Assembly (NCBI GenBank): GCA_900472605.1
Contig: UCJD01000046.1
Location: 1 to 64,000 of the forward strand
Length of the DNA: 64,000 bases
Direction of reading: 5' to 3'
Source: Hyphomicrobiales bacterium
Lineage (GTDB): Bacteria; Pseudomonadota; Alphaproteobacteria; Rhizobiales; Rhizobiaceae
The first letter of the stretch is position 1. Each line of letters starts with the position of its first letter. The notes beneath the pieces were generated by a model, which saw only the letters and a list, made by a program, of their open reading frames with translations, had not been told where the DNA came from and searched no databases. Made by a program: the position numbers and the translations under genes. Of the stretch, positions 55,487-64,000 are shown in pieces.

Positions 55487-56167
55487 ATGACGTATACTTT
55501 CGATTTCAATTCCGTTCTCTCGCGCGGGGACGAATTGTTGTTTGGCGCCTGGCTGACCCTGGTGTTAACGCTTATCTCGTTGGTTATCGGCGTTGTGATC
55601 GCAGCGCTCGGCGCCTATCAGCTGACCAATGGCAGCCGGTGGACCCGGCGGATGTGGTCTGCGTATATCGAAGTCGTACGCAATACGCCGCTTCTGGCAC
55701 AGCTCTTCCTGATCTTCTTCGGTCTTCCCGCCTTGGGCATCAAGCTGAATGCGAACGTAGCGGCCGTGGTTGCGCTGTCGTTCAATTTCGCAGCCTATGC
55801 GGCCGAGATCATCCGCTCGGGCGTGGATGGAATTTCGCCCGGACAAGCCGAAGCTGGCAAAGCGCTCGGCTTGAAAAAAGGTCAGATCTTCTTCCGGATC
55901 ATCCTGAAGCCGGCGCTTGCCACTATTTACCCCGCACTTGCCGCGCAATGCGTTCTTGTCCTGCTCGGAAGCGCGATCATCTCGACGATTTCGGCGAACG
56001 ACCTCAGTTCCAGCGCAGCGGTCATTCAATCCGCAACCTTCCGACCGTTCGAAGTCTATTTCGTGGTCACGGCTATTTATCTGGTGATGGCACTCGCCCT
56101 GCAAACCGCGCTTGATCTCCTCGGCCGTGTTGCGTTTCCCTTCAACACGTCCCGCGAGGCACGTTGA
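55487..56167 (+). CDS. Polar amino acid-type ABC permease 1
   Basis: Inner-membrane permease of 226 aa of the HisM/GlnP group. It has the EAA loop GQAEAGKALGLKKGQIFFRIIL and typical helix 1 (WLTLVLTLISLVIGVVIAAL). GGGAGGAGCACCGC lies upstream of the ATG. It belongs with the second permease, binding protein and ATPase that follow. Confidence 0.94.
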   Translation: MTYTFDFNSVLSRGDELLFGAWLTLVLTLISLVIGVVIAALGAYQLTNGSRWTRRMWSAYIEVVRNTPLLAQLFLIFFGLPALGIKLNANVAAVVALSFNFAAYAAEIIRSGVDGISPGQAEAGKALGLKKGQIFFRIILKPALATIYPALAAQCVLVLLGSAIISTISANDLSSSAAVIQSATFRPFEVYFVVTAIYLVMALALQTALDLLGRVAFPFNTSREAR

Positions 56168-56168
56168 C

Positions 56169-56867
56169 ATGCACCAGTTCGGTTACAATCACGTCATCTA
56201 TCTCGTCGAAGCCGCCCGCTGGACCGTGGCGTTGTCGCTGATCGCATTTGCCGGTGGCAGCATTCTCGGCTTTTTTCTCGCTCTGGCCCGCGTCCAGCCC
56301 GGCAGCGGGCTGGTTCGCAAGCTCGCGCTGGTCCTAATGCGTCTGTTCCAAGCCACGCCCCTGCTGATGCAACTTTTCATGTTCTATTTCGGCTTGAGCA
56401 TCATGGGATTGGAACTGAGTGCCTGGGCCTCAGCCAGCATTGCGCTGATCGTCTATACGGGCACGTTCCTTGGCGAAATTTGGCAAGGCTGTATCAGTGC
56501 GGTGCCCAAGGGCCAGAGCGATGCGGGCAAGGCCTTGGCGCTTACCTATTCGCAGCGCATGAGCCGGATCATCTTGCCGCAAGCGGTGCGGATCGCACTT
56601 GCCCCGACCGTCGGCTTTCTCGTGCAGGTCATCAAGAGTACGTCGCTTGCTTCCATCGTCGGCTTTGCTGAACTCATCCGCGCCAGCCAGATGGTCAACA
56701 ACGTGACCCTGCGACCGCTGCTCGTCTATTCGATCGTCATGGTGATCTACTTCGTTCTTTGCTGGCCGCTTTCCTTGTGGAGCCGCCATCTCGAAAACCG
56801 CCTTGCCGCCAAGGGCCGCACCGGCGCAGCAAGTGTCGACCCCAAGCTGCAAGCTGTTGCAGCTTAA
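56169..56867 (+). CDS. Polar amino acid-type ABC permease 2
   Basis: Inner-membrane permease of 232 aa with the EAA-type loop KGQSDAGKALALTYSQRMSRI and five predicted helices. The start at 56169 lies 1 nt after the stop of permease 1. It forms a heterodimer with it. Confidence 0.94.
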   Translation: MHQFGYNHVIYLVEAARWTVALSLIAFAGGSILGFFLALARVQPGSGLVRKLALVLMRLFQATPLLMQLFMFYFGLSIMGLELSAWASASIALIVYTGTFLGEIWQGCISAVPKGQSDAGKALALTYSQRMSRIILPQAVRIALAPTVGFLVQVIKSTSLASIVGFAELIRASQMVNNVTLRPLLVYSIVMVIYFVLCWPLSLWSRHLENRLAAKGRTGAASVDPKLQAVAA

Positions 56868-56888
56868 ATTCAACCAGGGAGGAATGTC

Positions 56889-57683
56889 ATGAGTATCACG
56901 AAATTAATCAAACTCACCGCCGCGGGGCTGATTGCCTCATTCGCTCTCTTCGGCGCTGCCCACGCGCAGTCGATCGATGATGTCGTCAAGCGCGGAAAGC
57001 TGTTGGTGGCGATCGATACGACGTACGCACCGTTCGGCACGATCAATGAAAACATGGAGCCGGATGGGTTCGAAGTCCAGCTCGCCAAAGAGATGGCAGC
57101 CGCACTCGGCGTGCAGGCCGAGATCGTTCCGGTCAATACCGCCAACCGCATCCCGGTTCTTCTAACCAACAAGGCGGACATCACCCTCTCGACGCTGGCA
57201 ATCACCCCGCAGCGTGCCGCTCAGGTGATGTTCTCGATTCCTTATTCCGGCGTGAAGTTCCAGATCATCTCAGAGAAGTCGCGCACGATCAAAGGCCCCG
57301 ATGATCTTGCCAGCCTGAAAATTGGCGTGATCCGCGGCGGCGCCGCAGAGGGACCCTTGAACGCCGTTGCGCCAAAGGGCACCACTGTCGTGCAGTTCGA
57401 CGATGTTGCCGGCTGCGTCCAGGGTCTACTGTCGGGGCAGGTGGATGCGATTGCCGAGGGCTGGCTGCTACCGGCCAAGATGAACCAGACGGCCGGTTCG
57501 GACAAATACGAAGCCAAGTTCGATCTCGGTGAATCCCATTACGGTATGGCTGTTCGCCGTGGCTCGTTCGACCTGCTGCAATGGATCAATACCTTCATCT
57601 ACACCTACAAGACCAACGGCAAGCTGGCCGCGCTTCACCAGAAATACATCCAGCTGCCGCTGCCCAACCTGCCCTCGTTCTAA
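56889..57683 (+). CDS. Polar amino acid-type ABC substrate-binding protein
   Basis: Periplasmic protein of 264 aa. The signal peptide (GLIASFALFGAAHA-QS) is followed by the family-3 pattern: GKLLVAIDTTYAPFG, PDGFEVQLAKEMAAALG, LLTNKADITLSTLAITPQRA and a late GESHYGMAVRRGS. Family 3 binds polar amino acids and opines, yet the operon otherwise handles sugar acids, so an acidic sugar or amino-sugar ligand is possible. Confidence 0.94.
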   Translation: MSITKLIKLTAAGLIASFALFGAAHAQSIDDVVKRGKLLVAIDTTYAPFGTINENMEPDGFEVQLAKEMAAALGVQAEIVPVNTANRIPVLLTNKADITLSTLAITPQRAAQVMFSIPYSGVKFQIISEKSRTIKGPDDLASLKIGVIRGGAAEGPLNAVAPKGTTVVQFDDVAGCVQGLLSGQVDAIAEGWLLPAKMNQTAGSDKYEAKFDLGESHYGMAVRRGSFDLLQWINTFIYTYKTNGKLAALHQKYIQLPLPNLPSF

Positions 57684-57710
57684 GACCGCCGATACAAGCC
57701 CAGGAGGAAA

Positions 57711-58487
57711 ATGATGAGCACCAACGCCGCGGCAAAACGCACCGACGAACGCGAACTGGCCGTCTCAATCAGAGACGTCAACAAATGGTATGGTGCTCAT
57801 CATGCCTTGAGAAATGTCTCGTTGGATGTGAAACCTGGCAGCCGCGTCGTCGTCTGCGGCCCATCTGGTTCCGGCAAGTCGACCCTCATTCGCTGCGTCA
57901 ACGGTCTTGAGGAGTTTCAGAAAGGGAGCATCGTCGTTGACGGTGTTCCGCTCAGCCCGGACATGAAGGGTGTGGAAAAAATCCGCGAGAACGCGGGCAT
58001 GGTGTTCCAGCAGTTCAATCTCTTCCCGCATCTGACCGTGCTGCAAAACTGTACGCTGGCGCCGATGCTGGTCAAAAAGATATCCAAGACGCAGGCGCAA
58101 CAGACCGCCATGCGATTTTTGGAGAAAGTTCGGATTCCCGAACAGGCTAGCAAGTTCCCGAACCAGCTTTCCGGTGGTCAACAGCAACGCGTGGCGATAG
58201 CCCGCGCACTCTGCATGATGCCGAAGATCATGCTCTTTGACGAGCCGACCTCGGCGCTTGATCCGGAAATGGTCAATGAAGTTCTGGACACGATGATCGA
58301 GCTCGCCCGCGAGGGTATGACCATGGTCTGTGTGACCCATGAAATGGGATTTGCCCGCAAAGTGGCAGACAATATCGTGTTTATGGATGCCGGTGCCGTC
58401 GCGTTTTCCGGCACGCCGGATCAATTCTTCGAAAACAACGACAATCCGCGCGTTCGTGATTTCATCGGTAAGATCAATCACGCTTAA
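57711..58487 (+). CDS. Polar amino acid-type ABC transporter ATPase
   Basis: ATPase of 258 aa. Walker A is GPSGSGKSTL, the signature is LSGGQQQRVAIARAL, Walker B is IMLFDEPTSALDPE and the switch His lies in VTHEMGFA. It powers the two permeases just upstream. AGGAGGAAA precedes two adjacent ATGs, and translation could begin at either. It is the last gene of the operon. Confidence 0.95.
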   Translation: MMSTNAAAKRTDERELAVSIRDVNKWYGAHHALRNVSLDVKPGSRVVVCGPSGSGKSTLIRCVNGLEEFQKGSIVVDGVPLSPDMKGVEKIRENAGMVFQQFNLFPHLTVLQNCTLAPMLVKKISKTQAQQTAMRFLEKVRIPEQASKFPNQLSGGQQQRVAIARALCMMPKIMLFDEPTSALDPEMVNEVLDTMIELAREGMTMVCVTHEMGFARKVADNIVFMDAGAVAFSGTPDQFFENNDNPRVRDFIGKINHA

Positions 58488-59047: not shown

Positions 59048-60688
59048 ATGCGTCTAAGGTTTCCGCTCTTGCTTTCAACGTCACTTATCCTTTCCGGCTG
59101 TACCGTTACGCCCGAATCGCTTTCCAAAGACGATCTCCGCAAGATAGCCGACAGCAACATATCACGCGTCACCGCCGCCCAGGCGCCGGTCACAGGATCG
59201 ATAGACATCTATGAGGCGACTGCACGGGCTTTGAAGCACAATCTCGACCAGCGTGTTGAGCTCATGCAGGAAGCGGTGAATATTCAGGAGTTGAATCTAG
59301 CTAGCTATCAGGGGCTTCCCAACCTTGTCCTTAATTCCGGCTATAATGGTCGAGACAATTTGCTCGCCAGTTCAAGCGTTTCCGTCCTCACCGGACAGCA
59401 ATCTCTCGAACCATCGACAAGTTCCGACAAGCAAATTCTGGAATCCGACGTCACGCTTAGCTGGAATGTTCTCGATTTCGGCCTGTCCTACGTCCGTGCA
59501 CGGCAGGCAGCCGACAAGGTGCTGGTACAGCGGGAAGCGCGCCGCAAGGCGCTCAACCGCATCGTCGAGGATGTCCGAACGGCTTACTGGCGCGCACTGG
59601 CAAGCGAACGTCTGCTTGCGCGCCTGAATTCGCTAGAGGGCAAGGCGCAAAAGGCGATCTCCGACTCCCGTTCGCTCGCAGACGAGAGACAGACTTCACC
59701 TGTAGTGGCCCTGACGTACGAGCGGGAGCTGCTAGAAATTCGACGCCAAGCCAAGCAGATCGCGGGGGAGCTTCGGACCGCTCGTAGCCAGCTCGCCGCC
59801 CTCATGAACCTCTCGCCGGACGCGAAATTCCGTCTATCAGGAGATCGGGTGGCGACGGGCAAACCCCCAACGGACGTGGACCCACGCAAGCTGATGCGCG
59901 TGGCAATTATGAACCGTCCTGAGGTGCGCGATGTCGCCTATCGGATCCGCAGCAACGAAAAGGAACTCGATGCGGCCTTGATCGAGACGCTTCCGGGAAT
60001 AAACGTCTTCGTCGGCCCGAACGTCAGCACAGATTCGTTCCTGTACAACGAAAACTGGCTTGGGTGGGGCGCGCGGGCCAGCTGGAATTTGCTGAAAGTG
60101 TTCCAGTACCCGCAGAAGAAGAGGCTGGTGGAATCACAGTCGGAACTCCTCGATGAGCGCTCTCTTGCCCTAACCATGGCGATCATGACACAGGTCCATG
60201 TGAGCCGCGTGCGTTACGTGCAGGCTCGCGAGGAACTCGCCATCGCCGGACAGTTGAAGAATGTCCAGCACAGGTTGCTGGACCAGATTGCGGCTTCGAC
60301 AACGACCGAGCAGACCAGCGAGCAGACACTAATTCGCGAGGAGATGAACACGATCGTTTCGGACGTCCGCTACGATCTTGCCTACGCCAACCTACAGAAC
60401 GCTTACGCAAATATCTACGCGTCGATCGGTCTTGACGCCTATCCACCTGTCGATATCGACCGAGCGAGCGTGGCGCAAATCAAGGATGTCTTGCGGCAGA
60501 CATGGGTGGCAAGGGGCGATTTGAAGACAGTTCTCGCGTCTGCTGACGACGTCATCTCGCAGCAGCGTGCGGAGGCCAAGTCTCCCGCCCAAACGGACGG
60601 CTCGTTGCTGGCTCGATCCAACGCCGGAAGCGAGGCGAAGGGCAGGGCGCCGACGGCTAGCATTGCGTCGTACTCGGCCGCGGATTGA
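59048..60688 (+). CDS. TolC-family outer membrane lipoprotein
   Basis: Protein of 546 aa of the outer-membrane efflux family. The signal peptide has lipobox LSGC (residues 15-18), so it is lipid-anchored like the OprM/NodT branch. Two long helical repeats follow with the typical YWRALASERLLARL-type segments, and DVTLSWNVLDFG marks a beta-barrel-entry strand. The C-terminus has a long Ala/Ser-rich tail. It provides the exit duct for the following inner-membrane proteins and overlaps the operon by proximity (4 nt gap). Confidence 0.92.
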   Translation: MRLRFPLLLSTSLILSGCTVTPESLSKDDLRKIADSNISRVTAAQAPVTGSIDIYEATARALKHNLDQRVELMQEAVNIQELNLASYQGLPNLVLNSGYNGRDNLLASSSVSVLTGQQSLEPSTSSDKQILESDVTLSWNVLDFGLSYVRARQAADKVLVQREARRKALNRIVEDVRTAYWRALASERLLARLNSLEGKAQKAISDSRSLADERQTSPVVALTYERELLEIRRQAKQIAGELRTARSQLAALMNLSPDAKFRLSGDRVATGKPPTDVDPRKLMRVAIMNRPEVRDVAYRIRSNEKELDAALIETLPGINVFVGPNVSTDSFLYNENWLGWGARASWNLLKVFQYPQKKRLVESQSELLDERSLALTMAIMTQVHVSRVRYVQAREELAIAGQLKNVQHRLLDQIAASTTTEQTSEQTLIREEMNTIVSDVRYDLAYANLQNAYANIYASIGLDAYPPVDIDRASVAQIKDVLRQTWVARGDLKTVLASADDVISQQRAEAKSPAQTDGSLLARSNAGSEAKGRAPTASIASYSAAD

Positions 60689-60692
60689 CGTC

Positions 60693-61442
60693 ATGGCCAG
60701 CGCGGGGCACCTCGTTAGTTTGACGGGCGTCGCGATGCTGCTTGCGATCGGGACCAGCTCCGCCCAGGATACGTCAGAGCCGGTGCGGGGATTGGTGCGC
60801 GCCATCGACGAGGCACTCATCTCAACGGAACTGAATGCACGTATCCTGCAGATCACCCGACGGGAAGGCGAGAGCTTTGCGAAAGGAGACGTGCTGCTCC
60901 GTTTCGATTGCGGCAAGTACGAGAGTGAACTTGACGCGGCTCGTGCCGAGGAGAAGTTCAATCTCCTCGCCCTGGACAACAGCATCGCGCTCGACAAACG
61001 CAAGGCGATCGGGAGGCTGGACGTTCAGCAGAATCGTGCAAGATATGAAAAGGCGAAGGCTGAGGCGGCAACGCTCGCCGTACAAGTAGCCGAGTGTACG
61101 ATTGCAGCCCCTTTCGACGGTCGTATTGCCGAGATGCGCGCCAAGACGTACGAAATGTCAAAGCCGGGCGAACCCCTGATGCGTCTGGTCAATACCAACC
61201 GCCTCGAGATAGAATTGATCGTTCCCTCGGTGTGGCTCAGGTGGCTCGAACCTCGCCTCAAATTCCGCGTCGTTGTCGATGAGACTGAAACGGTGCATGA
61301 TGCGACAGTCGAGCGTGTTGCCGCGACGGTCGATTCCGTCAGTCAGACGGTCAAAATAATCGGGATCTTCGCCGACAATTCGGCAGACATCCTGCCTGGC
61401 ATGAGCTTGAGTGCGGAGATAAAACAACCACCCTCGAGGTAG
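60693..61442 (+). CDS. HlyD-like periplasmic adaptor
   Basis: Adaptor protein of 249 aa. A short hydrophobic N-terminus ending in SSAQD is probably a signal peptide. The biotinyl-lipoyl-like halves are GESFAKGDVLLRFDC and CTIAAPFDGRIAEM, separated by one helical hairpin. The barrel reads LVNTNRLEIELIVPS. It is much shorter than RND adaptors. It would bridge the M50-type protein and the TolC-like duct. The start is an ATG at 60693, 4 nt after the upstream stop. Confidence 0.88.
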   Translation: MASAGHLVSLTGVAMLLAIGTSSAQDTSEPVRGLVRAIDEALISTELNARILQITRREGESFAKGDVLLRFDCGKYESELDAARAEEKFNLLALDNSIALDKRKAIGRLDVQQNRARYEKAKAEAATLAVQVAECTIAAPFDGRIAEMRAKTYEMSKPGEPLMRLVNTNRLEIELIVPSVWLRWLEPRLKFRVVVDETETVHDATVERVAATVDSVSQTVKIIGIFADNSADILPGMSLSAEIKQPPSR

Positions 61443-61443
61443 C

Positions 61444-62883
61444 GTGTTGAGTATCGAGGCGAGTCCCAAGACGGTCATTAAGATCGGTAGTGCTGCTGCT
61501 GGTGCTCCGAATCAGACGCCATTGCCCGAGATCTCTGGCAATGCGGAACCCTCCCAGGAGGAAGCAGTCAGCGCGCTTCGGCATCTGTTGTCGATTGAAA
61601 CCGACATACGGACATGCAGAAGCGTCGACGAACTGAGCGTCCTGCTCGTCAACGCGATCCAAAAGATCATGGGCGCGCGCTCGGCGTACTTCCTCGCTCT
61701 GCGTTCGAGGCGGCCACGCGTTATGAAGGTATCAGGCACCACGGAGCTTGATCACAATGCGCCGACTGTTCGATGGCTCGAAAAAGAGCTTCGAAGGTCC
61801 CCACCGTCTGCCGGATGGGACAATCCGGCTCCCGTGAGCATAAAGGTTGGAGCCGAGGCGCTCGTGGAAGAAGCACGCGTCTTTCCATTTCCGGAAGGCT
61901 ATTGGCTCCCATTGAAGCACCTTGACGGCAGACCTGAGTTCGGCGTTTTGGTGGTCGGGGAGCATGCATTTTCCGAGGGCGCCGTAACGATCGCGGCGCG
62001 CATCGCGGCGACTGCGGCACATGCCGCCACCGTTCTCACGCTCAAGACACCGCGTCGAACTATGGGCCAACTATCCAGATGGCTGCTTTACGGGCTGTGT
62101 CTCGCTGCCGCTGCTTCGATGTTCTACCCCGTGCCGATGACGGCTCTTGCGCCAATGGAAGTCGTTCCGAAAAATCCCTTCGTCGTCGCGGCGCCGATAG
62201 ACGGCGTCGTCGAGACCGTTGTCGCTGCGCCAAATTCGGCCGTCAAAGAGGGTGATCTCATCGTCCAGTACGTCGACACAGTTCCACGCAACCAATTGCA
62301 GATCGCCGAGCAGGAAGTGAGCGTGGCGGCCGCAAAGCTACGGCAATTGCAGCAAAGTTCCTTTGTCGATGAGACAGCAAAGCGGGAGCTGGCACAGTCC
62401 AGATCTGAATTGAGCTTGAAGGTTGCCGAACGGGATTTTGCCAAGGACACCTTTGAAAAATCGCAGATACGCGCGCCGAGAAAAGGGATTGCGGTCTACG
62501 CGGACCGAAAAGAATGGGTAGGCAAACCCGTCGTGACAGGCGAGCGTATTCTCGAGATTGCGGACGAGAACAGTGTCGAGCTGCGCGCCAATCTACCGGT
62601 CGCCGAAGTCCTGAACTTGAAGGCAGGAGGTCGTATACGCGCCTTCCTCAATGGCGATCCCCTCAACCCGCTTGATGCGACGGTGACCTCGACGAGCCAT
62701 CAGGCCCGCCTGGTAGAGGGGCAGGGACTGGTCTACCTAGTCAATGGAGAGTTCGCCACAGACGGCATCCCGCCGCGTCCAGGGGTCAGGGGAACGGCAC
62801 AGCTCTTCAGCGAAAAGGCGCCGCTTGGCTATTATCTGTTCCGGCGACCGCTGACATGGCTGCGCCAGAAGGTCGGTTTATGA
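61444..62883 (+). CDS. GAF-like HlyD-family membrane adaptor
   Basis: Protein of 479 aa with an unusual plan. Residues about 45-200 form a GAF-like region (helix, then AYFLALRSRRPRV, PEGYWLPLKHL, FGVLVVGEHAF). One transmembrane helix follows at about 210-232 (LLYGLCLAAAASMFYPV). The periplasmic HlyD part then has AAPIDGVVETVVAAPNS and SQIRAPRKGIAVYADRKEW as lipoyl halves. The GAF part would be cytosolic and could sense a small ligand and gate export. The start is a GTG one nt after the previous stop, and the end overlaps the next gene by 4 nt. Confidence 0.88.
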   Translation: MLSIEASPKTVIKIGSAAAGAPNQTPLPEISGNAEPSQEEAVSALRHLLSIETDIRTCRSVDELSVLLVNAIQKIMGARSAYFLALRSRRPRVMKVSGTTELDHNAPTVRWLEKELRRSPPSAGWDNPAPVSIKVGAEALVEEARVFPFPEGYWLPLKHLDGRPEFGVLVVGEHAFSEGAVTIAARIAATAAHAATVLTLKTPRRTMGQLSRWLLYGLCLAAAASMFYPVPMTALAPMEVVPKNPFVVAAPIDGVVETVVAAPNSAVKEGDLIVQYVDTVPRNQLQIAEQEVSVAAAKLRQLQQSSFVDETAKRELAQSRSELSLKVAERDFAKDTFEKSQIRAPRKGIAVYADRKEWVGKPVVTGERILEIADENSVELRANLPVAEVLNLKAGGRIRAFLNGDPLNPLDATVTSTSHQARLVEGQGLVYLVNGEFATDGIPPRPGVRGTAQLFSEKAPLGYYLFRRPLTWLRQKVGL

Positions 62884-64000
62884 CGACGCAGTCGGGACCA
62901 GGATCGATCATCGTACCGGCGCTTCGCGAGGACCTTCGGTTGCACAGGAGAGCCGCGGACGCAGAGGAGCCATGGCTTATCTACGACCCGATCGCCCATC
63001 GTTATCACGAGATCGACGAGCACGCGTTCAACCTCCTGCAAAACTGGCGCGGCGGACTTGGGCTGGAGGCGCTTGCGGCCCACATCAGCGGTCAGTTGCA
63101 CGAAGAGGCCTCGGCCGACGATCTCTACCAATTGATGCTGGTCCTCGATCAAGCTGGATTGCTGGGGGAGCCGCTTGGAGGCTGGAGATCGGCCTATCGA
63201 CATCAGCAGGACAGGCGGCGCGGGCCTATCTCGTGGTTGCTGCACAACTATCTTTTCATTCGCGTTCCTTTGTTCAAGCCCGATGATTTTCTCAGGGAGA
63301 CCTTGCCCATCGCGCGCGTGTTCGCGTCACGTACGATGCTCCTCATTCTCTTCCTTCTCGGTATCGCCGGCCTATTCCTTGCGTCGCGGCAGTTCGACAC
63401 CTTCTCTCACACTTTTCTCTATTTCTTCTCCCTGGAAGGCGCGCTCGGCTACGCCTGTGCGCTCATCTTCGTGAAAATCTTCCATGAACTCGGCCACGCC
63501 TACATGGCAAAGCATTTCGGGTGCCGGGTTCCGACCATGGGTATCGCATTTCTCGTGCTTGCGCCTGTTCTCTACACCGACGTGACCGATGCCTGGCGCC
63601 TGCAATCGCGCCGGCAGCGAATGCTTGTTAGCGGGGCGGGGATGATGGTGGAACTCGCCATCGCGGCTATTGCCACATTCCTCTGGGCTTTCTTGCCAGA
63701 TGGTATCATGCGAAGCGCTTGCTTCTTCATCGCGACGGCGAGCTGGGTGCTTAGCCTAGTGATCAACCTCAGCCCATTGATGCGCTTCGACGGATACTAT
63801 CTTCTCAGCGACTTCTGGCGCATTTCCAACCTGCAACCGCGCGCCTTCGCGATCCTGCGATGGTCGATCAGGGAGATGCTTTTCAATCTTCAGGCACCCT
63901 GCCCGGAGGAGTGGACGTCGCGTCGCCGCATCGCTGTCACGTTCTACGCGCTCGCCGTTTGCATCTATCGTCTTGGACTGTTCATTGGTATCGCTCTCGT
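62880..64000 (+). CDS. M50 peptidase-like export protein with PqqD-like N-terminus (partial)
   Basis: The start is the ATG of an ATGA overlap with the upstream stop, and the frame is open to the window end (373 codons seen). Residues about 30-100 look like a PqqD/RiPP-recognition-type domain (DPIAHRYHEIDEHAFNLLQNW, LYQLMLVLDQAGLL). A polytopic membrane part follows with zinc motif HELGH at residues 202-206 and the third-ligand segment RFDGYYLL around D304, as in M50 site-2 proteases. Proteins of this plan usually continue into a HlyD-like C-terminus. It is probably the inner-membrane centre of the export system. Confidence 0.9.
   Translation, partial: MTTQSGPGSIIVPALREDLRLHRRAADAEEPWLIYDPIAHRYHEIDEHAFNLLQNWRGGLGLEALAAHISGQLHEEASADDLYQLMLVLDQAGLLGEPLGGWRSAYRHQQDRRRGPISWLLHNYLFIRVPLFKPDDFLRETLPIARVFASRTMLLILFLLGIAGLFLASRQFDTFSHTFLYFFSLEGALGYACALIFVKIFHELGHAYMAKHFGCRVPTMGIAFLVLAPVLYTDVTDAWRLQSRRQRMLVSGAGMMVELAIAAIATFLWAFLPDGIMRSACFFIATASWVLSLVINLSPLMRFDGYYLLSDFWRISNLQPRAFAILRWSIREMLFNLQAPCPEEWTSRRRIAVTFYALAVCIYRLGLFIGIAL

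Follow-up and report, generated by a model that had tools for sequence, protein, structure and literature searches.

A four-gene TolC/HlyD/GAF-HlyD/M50 module in a Hyphomicrobiales bacterium as a putative export and processing system for tagged giant surface proteins

The DNA analyzed here is a stretch of 64,000 nucleotides (the window) from contig UCJD01000046.1 (C76) of a Hyphomicrobiales bacterium (assembly GCA_900472605.1), at whose far end lies a module of four forward-strand genes with a putative role in protein export. The first gene (59048..60688) encodes a TolC-like outer-membrane factor of 546 amino acids that matches PF02321 (OEP; 4.5e-24) and, as read from the sequence, carries a lipobox-like LSGC. 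It is followed by a short periplasmic adaptor of the HlyD/resistance–nodulation–division (RND)-membrane fusion protein type (60693..61442; 249 amino acids; HlyD_3, 4.6e-16; TIGR01730, 1.1e-31, above the cut-off), by a 479-amino-acid adaptor (61444..62883) that combines an N-terminal GAF-like region, a membrane segment recognized by eye, and a HlyD domain (HlyD_3, 3.7e-11; GAF_2, 0.035), and by the first part of a PqqD-like/M50/HlyD fusion gene (62880..64000; M50, 2.1e-8; HlyD_3, 5.4e-11), which runs past the window to C76:65003. The mechanical open reading frame (ORF) of the short adaptor begins at 60567, and an ATG at 60693 leaves a 4-nt gap after the TolC-like ORF; the GAF-type adaptor starts with GTG, 1 nt after the short adaptor. 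Alternative ATGs of the fusion gene occur at 62856 and 62880, the latter giving a 4-nt overlap with the preceding stop; counted from 62856, the M50 protein has 715 amino acids, and its gene stops 1 kb beyond the window edge. The gaps and overlaps of 1–4 nt and the Pfam matches confirmed the composition given in an initial annotation made from the sequence alone. Its description of the last product as an M50 protein with a PqqD-like front was plausible but incomplete: a C-terminal HlyD-type domain, seen only in the contig beyond the window, makes the M50 protein itself an adaptor.

The contig was read beyond the window (G000:C76 58400-78399, locus L007, G000 being the window's genome). In agreement with the initial annotation, no RND, major facilitator superfamily (MFS), or ATP-binding cassette (ABC) pump gene was seen by eye in the operon among the ORFs of at least 100 amino acids in C76 58.4–78.4 kb. 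The initial annotation had proposed to look beyond position 64,000 for a short precursor peptide or a maturation enzyme; the M50 gene is followed after 65–182 bp by a giant ORF of 3,432 amino acids (C76:65069-75367, outside the window), with a second possible start at ATG 65186. According to its sequence, this giant has LEPRMVFDAA at the N-terminus, FSEQM at the C-terminus, tandem-95/cadherin repeats (NF012211, 1.3e-99), a DUF4347 domain (5.3e-13), and no GGxGxD repeats-in-toxin (RTX) motif. The same genome contains a paralogous four-gene set (C62:38253-44081), whose M50 protein is 39% identical to that of the window and which is divergent from a second giant with a LEQRIAFDAA start, DUF4347, and a frame of 8,450 amino acids. 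A PAS-GGDEF gene (L008:8865-9851) faces the 3' end of this second module, which might mean control by c-di-GMP. A candidate third copy on C83 was discarded, being only a weak DNA match surrounded by unrelated genes.

In 80 named loci, the best 80 of 565 relatives, the GAF-type adaptor lay beside the M50 gene in 77, the short adaptor in 69, and a TolC-like gene in 43. The same gene order, which the initial annotation had proposed to look for in other genomes, thus recurs; because it does so in the paralogous copy and because the 80 loci keep the adaptors beside M50, the four-gene module is genuine and not a product of chance. A giant ORF, defined after inspection as an ORF of at least 560 amino acids with DUF4347 or a crude repeat pattern, was present in 59 of the 80 loci; among those spanning 21.5 kb or more, 36 of 39 had one. 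Among 299 genomes of the phylum, 85 were positive for M50 (a profile from eight M50 proteins, E <= 1e-40) and likewise 85 for DUF4347; both were found in 71 genomes, only M50 in 14, only DUF4347 in 14, and neither in 200 (odds ratio 72, p 7e-40, without correction for kinship). Counted by genus (n = 153), the respective numbers were 34, 10, 7, and 102. Of the 150 DUF4347 matches listed, at least 51 were on a contig with a listed M50, at least 45 of them within 25 kb, many of the assemblies being fragmentary. The distance limits of 25 kb used here and 2 kb used below, and the 600-bit split of the M50 profile (A2) described later, were set after looking at the data. The M50 protein also matched 78 plasmid records, including 18 from Escherichia and eight from Citrobacter. 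In the 11 plasmid surroundings fetched, a giant gene lay beside the module in E. coli, Variovorax, Azospirillum, Mesorhizobium, Burkholderia anthina, and Methylosinus. For example, an E. coli IncF-type plasmid from urine carries the complete module and a 4,457-amino-acid giant with LESRQLFDG (L012, L217), and on the Burkholderia plasmid the TolC gene and the giant gene share a 4-nt overlap. The neighboring gene on a Phyllobacterium plasmid encodes approximately 1,400 amino acids, and only a 492-amino-acid repeat protein was present on a Magnetospirillum plasmid. On a Cupriavidus plasmid without annotation, the four module genes were detected by profile and DUF4347 was not found; the Ensifer and Sinorhizobium surroundings, also without annotation, were left out of the analysis.

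The giants share an N-terminal motif, LExRxx[FL]D[AG], set in a variable, mostly basic stretch. It was present in all 48 DUF4347-containing ORFs of the named loci, the window's own genome, and Azospirillum (two of these entries being the same gene), and its L, E, R, and D were invariant in an alignment of 32. The motif lies 41–77 residues ahead of DUF4347 in the 44 entries from named loci and approximately 267 residues ahead of it in the window's giant. The control set consisted of 30 loci from 14 M50-free genomes, of which two without a profile match and two that were cut were left out; the motif occurred in two of the remaining 26 DUF4347 ORFs, both from one genome that was 57% complete. In a second set of loci (L197-L216), the start was complete in 14 module-linked giants; 12 of these matched the pattern, including the two variants LEPRLLFSA and LEPRILYDA, and the remaining two, LEARMMFDG and LELRFIFDG, appeared by eye to be of the same kind. 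Among the plasmid giants, Variovorax had LEARYMFDA and Burkholderia LEPRVVYDA. Furthermore, in five of the 14 M50-positive, DUF4347-free genomes (G298, G222, G082, G193, and G159), a giant bearing the motif lay beside M50, and for four of these five the frame was followed continuously from the motif to the stretch next to the module. The presence of the motif in such giants, together with its rarity in the M50-free controls, indicates that it tracks M50 and not DUF4347.

A second motif, [FL]xxQ[LIVM], with a leucine- and alanine-rich tail, was found at the C-terminus of 21 of 32 giants (1000 shuffles: mean 3.1, maximum 9), a count from which one antisense ORF had been removed and in which some ends resemble frame errors. 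The pattern was chosen by eye on this first set and then applied to the second set, where it was found in 10 of 18 (shuffles: mean 1.6, maximum 6); the second set is separate by record only, its genera overlap those of the first, and G143 was excluded for a contig identical to L048. None of the 11 controls whose end was reached had the motif. RTX motifs were scarce in the giants, with 0–3 in 47 entries and five in one. As a separate observation, some C-termini of untagged DUF4347 proteins from M50-free genomes (L128-L157 and L180-L196; G071, G171, G274, G280, and others) looked by eye like classical type 1 tails.

A sister branch of the module differs in its next gene. The initial annotation had named as evidence against its reading an RND pump or ATPase immediately following M50; none lies there at the window, where the giant is next, but the corresponding gene of Mesorhizobium and Methylosinus encodes a SecA-like ATPase of 638–653 amino acids (SecA_DEAD, 4e-101 and 1e-103). 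These ATPases have Walker-type motifs and did not match the SecA wing/scaffold model. Shortened SecA-like genes of this kind directly after sister M50 genes, such as L017:12135-14096 and L235:22171-24087, are annotated as 'DEAD/DEAH box helicase' or 'prepilin peptidase'. Across 76 genomes, 23 of the 32 listed M50s scoring below 600 bits, and none of the 96 above, had a short SecA-like gene directly downstream on the same strand; the split is rough, since G081 and G186 fall below it without a SecA-like neighbor and have giants with LEPRLMFDG and LEPRLLFSA. Among the matches listed, 19 of 43 short SecA-like matches were away from any listed M50. Along with the ATPase, the giants' motif shifts to LExRxxL[SN][AG][DE], which was found in nine of the 18 sister loci examined (Mesorhizobium, Methylosinus, G159, G006, G014, G144, G105, G117, and G065). 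The G061:C30 giant has LEQRLMFEG, and the shifted motif was not found in G061:C90, G026, G018, G153, G167, G019, G297, or G010, where the gene start was perhaps not reached. Six of the nine giants with the shifted motif contain DUF4347, which is therefore common to both branches. In two sister plasmid loci, a DUF3467 gene lies between the giant and the adaptors (L017:6742-7047; L235:17693-18013). The window's genome has one SecA_DEAD match over the cut-off, in a 977-amino-acid frame of housekeeping size, and does not qualify as having an accessory Sec system, which is defined by a dedicated SecA2 with SecY2 (no search for SecY2 was made).

The architecture of the M50 protein was considered with the AlphaFold model of a Rhizobium homologue (708 amino acids; mean predicted local distance difference test score 89), in which three strands and three helices at residues 19–92 are followed by a helical core and then by an adaptor domain. 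The order of these strands and helices is that of PqqD, and an hhalign comparison with seven PqqD rows gave a probability of 80.6 (E 1.3e-5). Model topology and profile comparison thus suggest a PqqD-like part in the window's M50 protein, in which Pfam PqqD itself found no match up to E 1; TIGR03859 (PqqD) reached 1e-5, under the cut-off, in one sister-branch protein. The adaptor domain resembles MacA (Z 16.5; root-mean-square deviation (rmsd) 3.4; 218 aligned). Because approximately seven membrane helices were counted in the model, the PqqD-like front would be cytosolic and the adaptor periplasmic; a hydropathy scan also gave seven segments, partly different ones. The core is a predicted site-2 protease, with HExxH and a second zinc motif in membrane helices: HELGH and NLSPLMRFDG are intact in the window's protein, HExxH and the N, P, D, and G residues are kept in all 53 M50 proteins compared, all of which match PF02163, and a comparison with the MjS2P structure (3b4r) gave 1.2e-4. 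The Foldseek and VIA matches of the whole model were to adaptor and biotinyl domains and therefore say nothing about the PqqD or site-2-protease folds, and searching PDB sequences with the N-terminal domain alone returned nothing useful. The ligand sensing by GAF proposed in the initial annotation found little backing, the matches being 0.035 for GAF_2 in the window's adaptor, GAF_2 at E <= 1 in two of eight homologues, and PF01590 at 1e-7 in one of eight.

The DUF4347 domain of a Rhizobium homologue was modeled with high confidence at residues of approximately 96–256, and it matched the effector Tce1 (Z 13.4; rmsd 3.0; 146 aligned) and SAVED-CHAT (Z 9.3; 2.9; 129), with legumain (Z 7.5; 3.7; 141) and the caspases less clear. 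The His of a His-Gly pair was conserved in 45 of 48 entries and the Cys of a Y-x-C motif in all 48, and the model accordingly predicts a clan CD (caspase/CHAT)-like fold with a conserved His-Gly and Cys. DUF4347 also appears in PA0256, a putative type VI effector (PMC8262886), and in a B. thailandensis protein (PMC12322963).

Taken together, the genomic linkage, the tags at both termini, and the change of tag where the SecA-like gene is present suggest that the giant adhesin-like protein next door is very probably the cargo. The module itself is probably a system, ending in TolC, that processes giant LEPR-tagged surface proteins and exports them. Its duct to the outside would in all likelihood be built from the TolC lipoprotein and the three adaptors. 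Cytosolic binding of the LEPR-type N-terminus to the PqqD-like domain is plausible; the M50 core might then cleave it within or at the membrane, a step of which we are less sure. For passage across the inner membrane, we tentatively propose a SecA-type motor, namely the dedicated SecA-like ATPase in the sister branch and, at this locus, perhaps the housekeeping SecA. Our uncertainty thus grows from the reading of the tag by PqqD, through cutting by M50, to the drive by a Sec-type motor. DUF4347 could conceivably add a self-cut or a linkage, at a similarly low level of confidence to that in the motor. The idea in the initial annotation that a peptide is recognized, cut, and passed to the duct is retained insofar as a protease with a peptide-binding-type domain would feed a TolC duct, but the cargo is likely a repeat protein of giant size instead of a small peptide, and what is recognized is more likely its LEPR-type N-terminus.

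Several observations weigh against this interpretation. The window's genome carries LssB- and PrtD-type exporters elsewhere, over the cut-offs, so that a distant ABC exporter is a possible partner there. The N-terminal hydrophobicity of the giants is weak (best 11 residues: median 1.61 in 48 giants, against 2.5 in 36 TolC proteins), which makes an ordinary Sec signal unlikely and speaks against export by the plain Sec route. In the structure model, the LEPR region is disordered, and the window's giant scores 12.6 bits against the LEPR-XLL model NF012209, under the cut-off of 17. Pfam PqqD matches were weak, with one of eight homologues at 0.0043 and three of 53, best 0.12, all under the cut-off. 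In terms of linkage, 105 of the 150 listed DUF4347 matches had no listed M50 within 25 kb, many contigs being short; DUF4347 was missing from 14 of the 85 M50-positive genomes; and in nine of these 14 the LEPR giant was not found or not reached. Finally, a Vibrio LEPR-XLL giant is described with C-terminal RTX domains (PMC10868602), so a LEPR motif may be compatible with export by a type 1 system.

The giant might instead be exported by a distant type 1 ABC exporter, with the local TolC and adaptors as the duct and the M50 protein only trimming or releasing the N-terminus later, in the manner of LapG and LapA. The giants do look like type 1 adhesins, and the exporters in the window's genome are in keeping with this scheme. 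We sought the LssB, PrtD, and HlyB families in a selection of 53 from the 85 M50-positive genomes, all with a completeness of 95% or more (G069, G073, G088, G089, G093, G105, G117, G122, G144, G145, and G157 were left out). LssB was over the cut-off in 30, PrtD in 22, and HlyB in 11; at least one type 1 ABC exporter exceeded a cut-off in 41 of the 53 module-bearing genomes, and none of the three did in 12. Six of these 12, of 99–100% completeness (G004, G023, G048, G064, G213, and G298, of which G048 is a sister-branch genome) lacked LssB and PrtD matches even at E <= 1e-100 and had only HlyB matches, of a strength equaled in 11 of 14 control genomes. Moreover, with a profile from two seeds, an ABC ATPase was within 2 kb of the module in only one of the 80 loci, on the opposite strand, and the giants are poor in RTX motifs. 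On balance, export by a distant ABC exporter appears unlikely.

Two further explanations were weighed. According to one, the M50/PqqD protein and the duct serve the maturation and export of a small, undetected peptide resembling the ribosomally synthesized and post-translationally modified peptides (RiPPs), as with the daptide and YydH/LiaK proteases, and the giant is a frequent neighbor with its own exporter. Leader binding by PqqD-type domains is a feature of known RiPP systems, and daptide_HExxH is the top NCBIfam match of the M50 protein (1.2e-46; 159.6 bits against a 300-bit cut-off). However, no recurrent extra gene was recognized among the ORFs of 100–1,400 amino acids in the 80 loci (shorter ORFs were not examined), their clusters being, by eye, mostly the module genes in shadow frames, together with a single ABC cluster that came from 23 loci; the LEPR motif also tracks M50, and its variant shifts where the SecA-like gene is present, so we hold small-peptide export to be very improbable. 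According to the other, the giant is secreted uncut, M50 and PqqD serve as a docking gate only, and any cutting is done by DUF4347. This would agree with the clan CD-like fold and conserved residues of DUF4347, but the zinc and active-site residues of M50 are retained in all 53 proteins and five DUF4347-free genomes have a motif-bearing giant beside M50, which leaves uncut secretion with a small probability.

Returning to export of the tagged giant by the module, the closest known parallel is the type 1 secretion of giant adhesins (LapA/LapBCE, SiiE, and BapA; HlyBD-TolC), which shares the TolC duct, HlyD-type adaptors, an Ig/cadherin-repeat giant encoded alongside, and a protease. At the locus, the TolC-family factor and the HlyD adaptors (three HlyD_3 proteins) of that type are present, whereas its cognate ABC exporter is absent from the operon, as are the usual, though not universal, C-terminal RTX repeats from the giant; the module has three adaptors, one fused to M50 and a PqqD-like domain, and its cargo bears an N-terminal LEPR-type motif and few RTX motifs. 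The definition of type 1 secretion fails because no ABC exporter belongs to the module. An RND or MFS tripartite pump was not found at the locus either, and in the 80 loci, on which no RND or MFS profile was run, the ORF clusters pointed to no such recurrent gene. Accessory Sec (SecA2/SecY2) exports giant serine-rich repeat adhesins, and the sister branch resembles it in that a shortened SecA-like motor of its own adjoins a giant whose N-terminal signal is unusual; in contrast, the module is Gram-negative, with a TolC duct, adaptors, and M50, and the window's type has no adjoining SecA (a second SecY was not searched for). The M50 core and PqqD-like front resemble, by profile, RiPP intramembrane proteases (daptide MpaP, NF041824, 1.2e-46; YydH/LiaK, NF058609, 1.6e-10; both under the cut-off), from which the module's M50 protein differs in its extra HlyD domain, its TolC partners, and a giant protein in place of a short precursor. 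Similarly, the N-terminal motif recalls LEPR-XLL proteins: the Mesorhizobium sister giant scores 33.4 bits against NF012209, over the cut-off, unlike the window's variant LEPRMVFDAA. We know of no partner machinery assigned to LEPR-XLL proteins.

The initial annotation knew of no characterized rhizobial system of this exact composition, and the literature searched, as far as its text was available, contained no description of the module; for the SecA-like branch, this extends to one review (PMC8277102). LEPR-XLL is also mentioned in PMC9611531; the Pectobacterium multi-repeat adhesin system (PMC6963963) has LapG and occurs in all species, with a 'peptidase M50' restricted to P. aroidearum, and is a different system; ABC genes and a predicted Sec signal set BapP of Pseudoalteromonas (PMC12153261) apart; DDxP proteins (PMC7730722) are tied to type 1 clusters; and PMC12114271 is unrelated. 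With the type 1 definition failing and no description in the literature searched, we regard the module as a putative new kind of system assembled from known parts, recognized here at the sequence level. Whether it amounts to a separate Gram-negative secretion class is a suggestion that we place somewhat short of an even balance: in such a class, a two-ended address would be read by a PqqD/protease/adaptor fusion and a SecA-type push would drive the cargo into a TolC duct with no ABC, RND, or MFS pump. The cargo would be approximately 1,000–16,000 amino acids long, with LExRxx[FL]D[AG] or LExRxxL[SN][AG][DE] at the N-terminus and [FL]xxQ[LIVM] at the C-terminus, and the motor would be dedicated and shortened in one branch and the housekeeping SecA in the other. 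An ABC, RND, or MFS engine is generally regarded as a requirement of TolC-dependent ducts; if our interpretation is true, a peptide-reading protease-adaptor would replace that engine in a widespread family, with a SecA-like motor in one branch, in a new route for very large adhesins across two membranes, and three orphan labels, the LEPR-type motif, DUF4347 in giants, and 'HlyD family' M50 fusions, would gain a function.

In the surroundings of the window's module, the genes upstream (55487-58487) look like an ABC uptake set of the amino-acid type and stop 560 bp short of it, and the next large gene after the giant is on the opposite strand and reads as phosphoketolase-like. Relatives of the module were found in rhizobia, Pseudomonas, Nitrospira, and Pelagibacteraceae. 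Phage tail-collar (PF07484) proteins adjoin the giant in Pseudomonas and Pectobacterium loci (L094:12991-13587, L125:12498-13328), a 'tail fiber protein' is annotated near the giant in Azospirillum and Burkholderia (L014, L221), and some Pseudomonas loci have a sulfotransferase gene and GNAT-like genes in the interval from M50 to the giant. The tail-collar, sulfotransferase, and GNAT-like neighbors are possible tip or modification factors.

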